Shown piece by piece: positions 2,892-3,610 of a stretch of DNA of 46,163 nucleotides. Origin of the DNA: an uncultured Bacilli bacterium. GTDB lineage: Bacteria; Bacillota_I; Bacilli_A; RF39; UBA660. The stretch is taken from contig CALVJB010000007.1 of assembly GCA_944332025.1 (NCBI GenBank), positions 1-46,163 on the forward strand, written 5' to 3'. The position numbers and the translations under genes are program-made. The notes under the pieces were generated by a model that made no database searches, had not been told where the DNA came from, and saw only the letters and a program-made list of their open reading frames with translations. Within the stretch, counting starts at the first letter, position 1; each line of letters starts with the position of its first letter.

Positions 2892-2920
2892 TTGTACTGC
2901 AAATTATTACATGATACTAT
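2892..2920 (+). promoter_or_regulatory. Promoter of the small membrane-peptide cassette
   Basis: TTGTAC (2892-2897), a 17-nt spacer and TACTAT (2915-2920), with an extended -10 TG at 2912-2913. The predicted start, about seven bases downstream, coincides with the first base of the long-range pairing arm at 2927. Confidence 0.55.
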
Positions 2921-2926
2921 ATTTAT

Positions 2927-3127
2927 ATAGCATTTAATAACTAATCATAGGGCGACTTAATTTCTTATGTTTAAGAAAGGGGAGCATACTATGAATGAAG
3001 AAGTAAATAAAAGTAAAATAGAAATAATAACAGAATTTATTTTTTCTATTATTACTCTTATTTTAACAGCATTAATATTTGTATTAATTCTTTTTAAATA
3101 GTGTTTAATAGAGTTATTAGATGCTAT
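2927..3127 (+). other. Long-range inverted repeat closing the small mRNA
   Basis: Bases 2927-2942 (ATAGCATTTAATAACT) can pair with 3112-3127 (AGTTATTAGATGCTAT) over 16 contiguous positions, with one G-U wobble. The 3' arm runs into five T residues. The paired ends exactly bracket the leader and the 36-codon gene. Confidence 0.7.
2991..3101 (+). CDS. 36-residue single-membrane-helix peptide, type I toxin-like
   Basis: An ATG at 2991 opens 36 codons ending TAG. The peptide has a short charged N-terminus (MNEEVNKSK), then about 22 hydrophobic residues rich in Ile, Leu and Phe, and ends in Phe-Lys. A strong ribosome site (AAGGGGAG, 2977-2984) lies 6 bases before the ATG. A 7-bp hairpin (2961-2967 with 2972-2978, loop TGTT) abuts and partly covers that site. 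The predicted mRNA 5' end (2927-2942) can pair with bases 3112-3127 just after the stop codon. Short hydrophobic peptide, masked ribosome site and 5'-3' closure are hallmarks of type I toxin mRNAs. No family match is recognised and no convincing antisense promoter was found, so the toxin role is inference. It could instead be an ordinary small membrane protein. Confidence 0.55.
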   Translation: MNEEVNKSKIEIITEFIFSIITLILTALIFVLILFK

Positions 3128-3156
3128 TTTTCTATTGTAAAATAATGACTAGATAC

Positions 3157-3185
3157 TTGACGAATATTATTACTAATGATAAATT
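3157..3185 (+). promoter_or_regulatory. Promoter of the bacterial PH gene
   Basis: TTGACG (3157-3162), a 17-nt spacer and TAAATT (3180-3185). It lies about 33 bp upstream of the ATG at 3218, which has an AGAGGTG ribosome site. Confidence 0.6.
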
Positions 3186-3217
3186 TTAAGTAATGAAAAT
3201 AAAATAGAGGTGTTAAT

Positions 3218-3610
3218 ATGGCGTATATTAAATTTAAAGAATTATCTAAATATTTTGATTTTAAAGAAGAGATTGCAACTGATAAATTACCGGATTATGC
3301 TAGGGAATATGTTAGTAGTAAAGAGACTATTTTAGGTAGTTATAAAAATAGTAAGGATTATGCTGTTTTTACAGATAAAAAAATGATTTTATTTGATAGA
3401 GATACCCTTGCTGTCTATTATAAAAAAATACATATCTTTCCTTATACATCAATATCTAGTAGTGCTATTAACTTTAAACCTGGTAAAGTAGAACTCCTTT
3501 TTAGCTTCGATAGTGGATATCAGTTACATATTAACTTTATTGAAATGAATCATGATAAAAAAGAAAAACTTAAGAGTATATATAAAATAATGATGGAAAC
3601 TAAGCTTTAA
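3218..3610 (+). CDS. Bacterial PH-domain protein (bPH/YokE-like)
   Basis: A 130-residue soluble protein without signal peptide or membrane segment. The central pattern, a strand containing AVFTDKKMILFDRDT followed by alternating short beta strands and a C-terminal amphipathic helix, is that of bacterial pleckstrin-homology-like proteins (bPH_1/YokE type). The function of these proteins is largely unknown; some respond to cell-envelope stress. The ATG at 3218 is preceded by AGAGGTG at normal spacing. A weak hairpin overlapping the stop codon (AAGCT 3602-3606 with AGCTT 3615-3619, then Ts) may end the transcript. Its own promoter separates it from the preceding peptide cassette. Confidence 0.7.
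   Translation: MAYIKFKELSKYFDFKEEIATDKLPDYAREYVSSKETILGSYKNSKDYAVFTDKKMILFDRDTLAVYYKKIHIFPYTSISSSAINFKPGKVELLFSFDSGYQLHINFIEMNHDKKEKLKSIYKIMMETKL

Follow-up and report, generated by a model that had tools for sequence, protein, structure and literature searches.

The window analysed here, a stretch of 46,163 nucleotides, carries between positions 2892 and 3131 a very short gene for a hydrophobic peptide flanked by two complementary arms, and this raises the question of whether the locus is a type I toxin-like cassette whose mRNA is held silent by the pairing of its own two ends, as in hok, and whether an antisense RNA belongs to it. The parts of the cassette are as follows, "canonical" referring to the more regular cassettes described further below.

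2892-2897, plus strand: weak -35-like TTGTAC, 17 nt 5' of the extended -10 box; only its TTG is conserved in relatives
2912-2920, plus strand: extended -10 promoter TGATACTAT; an identical box precedes most canonical paralogues of the same genome
2927-2942, plus strand: predicted transcript 5' end and 5' closing arm, ATAGCATTTAATAACT / AUAGCAUUUAAUAACU
2945-2994, plus strand: hairpin region over the start codon and part of the Shine-Dalgarno (SD) region; outer stem 2945-2950/2989-2994, inner stem 2961-2967/2972-2978
2950-2955, plus strand: GGGCGA motif, invariant among complete window-type cassettes and positional counterpart of the canonical TTGGGTGA
2976-2984, plus strand: SD region AAAGGGGAG
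2991-3101, plus strand: ORF of 36 codons plus stop; single hydrophobic helix with a charged N-terminus, candidate membrane toxin
3096-3131, plus strand: terminator-like hairpin (3096-3110/3115-3129) and U tail; contains the 3' arm and is mutually exclusive with the closure
3112-3127, plus strand: 3' closing arm, AGTTATTAGATGCTAT / AGUUAUUAGAUGCUAU
3134-3163, minus strand: candidate antisense promoter TCGTCA-18-TACAAT, not supported; overlaps the TTTACA of an earlier, preliminary description

The ORF encodes MNEEVNKSKIEIITEFIFSIITLILTALIFVLILFK, a peptide of 36 residues with a long hydrophobic stretch. Together with the extended -10 box, the arms and the hairpin, it lies where the preliminary description of this locus had placed it, and the predicted transcription start (2927) indeed falls on base 1 of the 5' arm (2927-2942), as had been claimed. 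The same description had noted a second hairpin adjoining and partly covering the ribosome-binding site: the inner hairpin (2961-2967/2972-2978) lies directly beside the SD, and the start codon is additionally covered by a longer stem (2945-2950/2989-2994).

Folding the predicted 205-nt RNA (2927-3131) gave the proposed 16-bp 5'-3' closure, with a minimum free energy of -49 kcal/mol, where shuffled sequences averaged -29.3 kcal/mol (z = -5.73; none of 200 shuffles equalled it). Pairing of the two arms (2927-2942 and 3112-3127) involves 15 Watson-Crick pairs and one G-U pair, and their complementarity score of 33.5 exceeds the 99th percentile (23.5) of 1,000 random places of the same geometry in the window, one of which also scored 33.5 and is probably the closure site itself. 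Since the terminator-like hairpin begins at the stop codon and its 3' half is the 3' closing arm, this arm has two mutually exclusive partners. Forcing the 5' arm to stay unpaired costs the fold about 6 kcal/mol, so that, after release of the RNA, the closure should displace the terminator stem. Predicted 3' truncation of the window mRNA and of the L033 mRNA freed the 5' arm and left the SD hairpin closed, so that 3' trimming alone need not open these mRNAs and a further step (breathing, a standby site or a longer truncation) would be required. In L024-type mRNAs, the SD is predicted to be mostly unpaired even in the closed form.

We then read the sequence upstream of the SNF2-helicase gene in all genomes of the genus (35 genomes) that have this gene. 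At this single chromosomal locus, the cassette is complete in nine copies, eight besides that of the window: the order is cassette-bPH-SNF2 in five genomes (G000, G004, G010, G014 and G028) and cassette-SNF2, with the cassette directly upstream, in four (G025, G029, G023 and G012), the G023 and G012 copies being found only by this reading. A short single-helix hydrophobic peptide is conserved at the locus in eight other genomes; its identity to the window peptide is 89-100% in G028, G004, G010 and G014, and 41-44% in G025, G029 and G001, where it has diverged (44% for G025 and G029). All nine complete copies keep the TGATAC -10 box, the 5' arm GCAT[T/C]TAATA, the GGGCGA motif, the SD, the peptide, the 3' arm TATTAGATGC and the T run, so that both arms are conserved in relatives, as the preliminary description had suggested checking, with some compensatory change. 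In eight of these nine copies, 92.9% of the closure cells are paired, compared to 31-53% for slid controls, and the covariation score is 0.179, compared to a shuffled value of 0.109; the compensatory changes amount to one U-A/A-U swap and one U-G/C-G change, and since 10 of the 16 closure pairs are invariant, covariation among these sequences is thin. A 5'-3' closure of a toxin-like mRNA, the property that marks AapA and hok mRNAs, is here both predicted and covarying. The promoter and 5' UTR are 88-100% identical among orthologues and the upstream flank only 52-77%; between the window and G010, the values are 97-100% for the promoter and 5' UTR and 52% for the 60 bp immediately upstream, and the two substitutions in the G010 5' UTR lie in the loop or convert a U-G pair to U-A.

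Homologous loci with the peptide but without the pairing arms, which the preliminary description had named as evidence against the cassette, exist in two cases, to be set against the nine copies that keep both arms: in G018, the peptide and the 3' arm are present and the 5' part, including the 5' arm, is replaced, and in G001, the ORF is split from its 3' arm by sequence between the inverted repeats TGAGTTTAGGT / ACCTAAACTCA. Both look like rearranged copies, and in G034 and G024 little beyond the 3' arm is left. The insert bounded by TGAGTTTAGGT/ACCTAAACTCA (L021 and L294; C36 of G001) looks like a small mobile element that cuts the cassette. Two other sites upstream of SNF2 (L288 and L304) share TACAGTACCCTGTGAAATTTGA beside a missing or replaced cassette, possibly an insertion element or a CRISPR-like repeat. 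In three SNF2-adjacent cassettes (L291, L298 and L308), GGGCGAU in the 5' UTR can pair with AUCGCUC in the ORF (Ile-Ala-Leu codons); the ORF of the window-type cassette has no AUCGCUC partner for GGGCGAU.

A search of the taxonomic family in which the diverged peptide served as query retrieved peptides like MNKKDFLIFALVIIIFLLLLLLFITLI in a strikingly regular setting, which we refer to as canonical cassettes. Their peptides are helical and about 27 residues long, and a pN/pS of 0.27 indicates purifying selection on the coding part. In an alignment of 57 canonical cassettes (A4), 96% of the cells of the outer closure GGAACATTTAATA / TATTGAATGTTCC are paired, and 8 of its 13 pairs have changed on both sides; a second closure helix, GTTGGGTG..TGCC / GGCAACACTCAAC, is 94% paired. 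For a hairpin that follows the stop codon (CACCTAA/TTAGGTG) the figure is 95%, and 5 of its 8 pairs show compensation. The SD-sequestering hairpin of canonical cassettes is 92-95% paired and also shows compensatory changes. A second set of cassettes came from a search of named genomes with nothing but the 5' arm sequence, the species partly overlapping those of A4: the 3' arm is present in 92 of its 96 ORF-bearing cassettes, followed in 90 of these by a T-rich run, and one U-G wobble is nearly always kept in the closure, at position 7 or 9.

Three cassettes with the usual RNA arms (L148, L186 and L080) encode very different hydrophobic peptides (e.g., MTKRKKALYAIISLLFILIFIILFK), and here the peptides seem to be exchangeable within the RNA frame. 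A further 29 matches to the conserved 5' arm (L100, L104, L115 and 26 others) have no ORF that the filter used could recognise; some of these lie at contig ends, and others may be decayed or encode different toxins. One 5'-arm match in a record titled Bacteroidetes bacterium CTSoil_027 (L142) is possibly due to chance, misbinning or transfer.

On the opposite strand, canonical cassettes have a promoter located downstream of the 3' arm, TTGACA-17-TATGNTATNAT, that fits 60 of 65 cases and has a spacer of 17 in 55; the sites were placed by the -10 pattern and the TTGACA-like -35 emerged nonetheless. In L033, a generic promoter scan found TTGTCA-17-TATTAT with a TG at the same place. A short hairpin at the presumed antisense start keeps its pairing while its stem changes in sequence (CAAG/CTTG, ATGAAG/CTTCAT, TATGCAAG/CTTGCATA or ATGCAG/CTGCAT). 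From these elements, the antisense RNA would be about 110-130 nt long and would end at the CACCTAA hairpin before a T-rich stretch, a terminator according to our own reading that was missing from the output of the generic terminator scan. This RNA would be fully complementary to the 3' UTR of the toxin mRNA, with a predicted duplex energy of about -200 kcal/mol. The canonical paralogues thus combine a promoter, an RNA structure and a putative terminator into what reads, at the sequence level, as a convergent antisense RNA gene. Downstream of many of these cassettes (as at 1355-1380 of L033), the antisense -35 is embedded in an inverted repeat (e.g., AACGACTTGTCAAAAAGTCGTTTTT) with a stem that varies while its pairing is kept; this repeat looks like a terminator acting in both directions, which delimits the cassette and contains the promoter element.

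In contrast to the canonical type, the window type has no canonical-type antisense promoter on the minus strand of 2990-3330 or in its orthologues, although an unusual promoter is conceivable, nor does it have the CACCTAA hairpin that would end an antisense RNA. The preliminary description had proposed that a weak minus-strand TTTACA (3140-3135) could start such an RNA; this could not be upheld, as the motif has no good -10 at the usual spacing and no promoter is kept in G010 and G014.

Family matches were found in 34 of the 35 genomes of the genus (E up to 0.1) and, within a sample of 288 genomes from the order, in 172 (E up to 0.01), those listed being all in the family of the window, and matches in a class-wide sample of 395 genomes (E 1e-4) were confined to that same family. 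Genomes carry up to about 16 copies, and the named records with cassettes come from uncultured gut Bacilli and "Tenericutes", Candidatus Onthousia among them. No relatives were found in the plasmid, phage and IMG/VR collections. The peptides match no Pfam, NCBIfam or PHROG family above cut-off, in line with the initial impression that the peptide belongs to no known family; profile matches to SecE, EssA and DUF5345 fell below cut-offs and look like hydrophobic-composition matches. Rfam covariance models at gathering score gave no match in the window and only tRNAs in 12 related loci. We also discarded weak peptide matches (L002, L015, L018-L020, L022, L023 and L025-L027), which are reading frames of a different repeated locus that does not have the cassette layout, and DNA matches (L005-L010) that look like AT-rich chance. 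In the open-access literature we found no such system; subscription journals were mostly outside the scope of that search, and a prior description is possible.

How does the window cassette relate to the canonical ones? In its own genome, there are 16 profile matches to the canonical family, and those inspected have the full layout, most of them with the TGATACTAT box. When a 5' model built from nine of these paralogues was searched in the 46-kb window, the window cassette was the top match (E 0.013), the next one having an E of 3.1. Window-type and canonical peptides are 26-44% identical. Considering the match to the 5' model, the common order of elements and the related peptides, we regard homology between the two types as likely, the link being of moderate strength. 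The preliminary reading of the locus as a type I toxin-like cassette with a hok-like closure is borne out as far as the closure is conserved at the locus and relatives have a complete type I layout, and not for an antisense RNA in the window itself.

On balance, we consider it fairly probable that the window holds a diverged member of a new type I toxin-like cassette family, whose mRNA would be silenced by closure and whose antisense RNA seems to have been lost. A short mRNA would start at 2927, end at the U tail near 3131 and encode the 36-residue membrane peptide. During transcription, a local hairpin would cover the SD and the start codon; once made, the 3' end would initially fold into the terminator hairpin and afterwards pair with nucleotides 1-16 of the mRNA. 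By analogy with hok and AapA mRNAs, the closed form would be translationally silent, and it would open when the 3' arm is trimmed, so that a membrane-active peptide could be translated. In canonical paralogues, the convergent antisense RNA of about 110-130 nt over the 3' end should destroy the mRNA, probably via RNase III, and in the window type, where the antisense gene seems to have been lost, the closure would be relied on. Of this picture, the anatomy, its conservation and covariation and the antisense promoter of the canonical type come from computation; the start of transcription, the silencing, the processing, the toxicity and the part played by RNase III are inferences.

The window cassette might instead be an ordinary gene for a small non-toxic membrane protein, such as a regulator or an assembly factor of its neighbour, with a closure and a terminator that only stabilise or end the mRNA. 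The lack of an antisense promoter and the nine complete copies at a single locus beside the SNF2 helicase gene would suit such a gene, and the toxicity of the window peptide is something that we infer. Nevertheless, we find this rather unlikely, since the layout and the promoter box match those of paralogues with a full antisense gene, since the peptide resembles type I toxins in its short length, single helix and variability, and since the copy is disrupted or absent at the locus in many relatives, so that the cassette is not a fixed partner of the helicase. Another view, which we judge still less probable, is that of a full type I system whose antisense RNA is made from an unrecognised promoter or supplied in trans by a paralogue, as the convergent antisense layout of the inspected own-genome paralogues might suggest. 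With the canonical antisense promoter model, however, the best minus-strand promoter of the window scores 5.4, and -0.2 in G010 and G014, compared to 11.5-23 for canonical ones; moreover, nine paralogous antisense RNAs are predicted to form duplexes of only -29 to -46 kcal/mol with the window mRNA, compared to about -200 kcal/mol with their own targets, and since these energies fall in the range of shuffled mRNAs, we rejected an action in trans.

Inverted repeats at both ends, many copies per genome and tandem copies are also what one would expect if the arms were the terminal repeats of a small mobile element (MITE) and formed no RNA structure. We rejected this idea, which we find hardly credible, since conservation reaches past the arms into both promoters, G-U pairs are systematic, compensatory changes affect the inner helices too, the 3' arm doubles as a terminator hairpin, and window-type copies stay at one locus. 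Returning to a diverged type I toxin-like cassette silenced by its closure, one can go a step further: since the 5' end of the mRNA has the sequence expected of an antisense to its 3' end, this mRNA can be read as carrying its own "antitoxin" in cis. That the window type is free of a separate antitoxin in this way and makes up, with the canonical paralogues, a new type I family spanning the lineage and built on a fixed RNA chassis whose peptides can be exchanged is a more tentative proposal, to which we give about one chance in three.

Among known systems, hok/Sok of E. coli plasmid R1 and chromosomes has an overlapping leader ORF and a longer peptide than the one studied here. The resemblance lies in the 5'-3' closure and the closed full-length mRNA; unlike in hok/Sok, we noticed no overlapping leader ORF, the antisense RNA lies at the 3' end (canonical type) or is absent (window type), and the shorter peptide has no family match in the profile searches. 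The closed full-length hok mRNA is inert and needs 3' processing, and in AapA of Helicobacter pylori, a long-distance 5'-3' interaction likewise makes the full-length mRNA inert, with metastable hairpins that sequester the SD (PMC6733600). AapA/IsoA is similar in its helical peptide of about 30 residues, its mRNA of about 205-225 nt, its closure and its SD hairpins (PMC6733600). It differs in that IsoA lies opposite the AapA ORF, whereas the canonical antisense RNA lies over the 3' UTR and none was detected for the window type; in addition, it belongs to a different phylum, and no match to a family profile links the peptides.

The CD0977.1/RCd11-type systems of Clostridioides difficile, with membrane peptides of 34-47 residues, convergent antisense RNAs and duplicated copies (PMC7699646), share small membrane peptides, convergent antisense and duplication with the present family; however, those described are prophage-borne and have positively charged tails, whereas the present family was not found in the phage, plasmid and viral collections. 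In type I toxins of B. subtilis, the ribosome-binding site is held by local pairs or a short stem and the antisense RNA acts at the 3' end (PMC6562991). The txpA/RatA and bsrG/SR4 systems of Bacillus subtilis thus resemble the canonical cassettes in their 3'-end antisense and sequestered ribosome-binding site, and differ in the closure found here, in the window type without antisense and in the lack of a peptide family match. The same work assigns mRNA processing to Gram-negative bacteria as their strategy and mentions no closure of this kind for B. subtilis (PMC6562991). Judged from their sequences, the canonical cassettes look like a new type I toxin-antitoxin family that combines a hok/AapA-like closure with a TxpA/BsrG-like 3' antisense. 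If this is true, they join the Gram-negative design, an inactive mRNA activated by processing, with the Gram-positive one, a 3' antisense RNA, and a natural antisense-free subfamily such as that of the window offers a direct test of whether closure alone holds a toxin silent.
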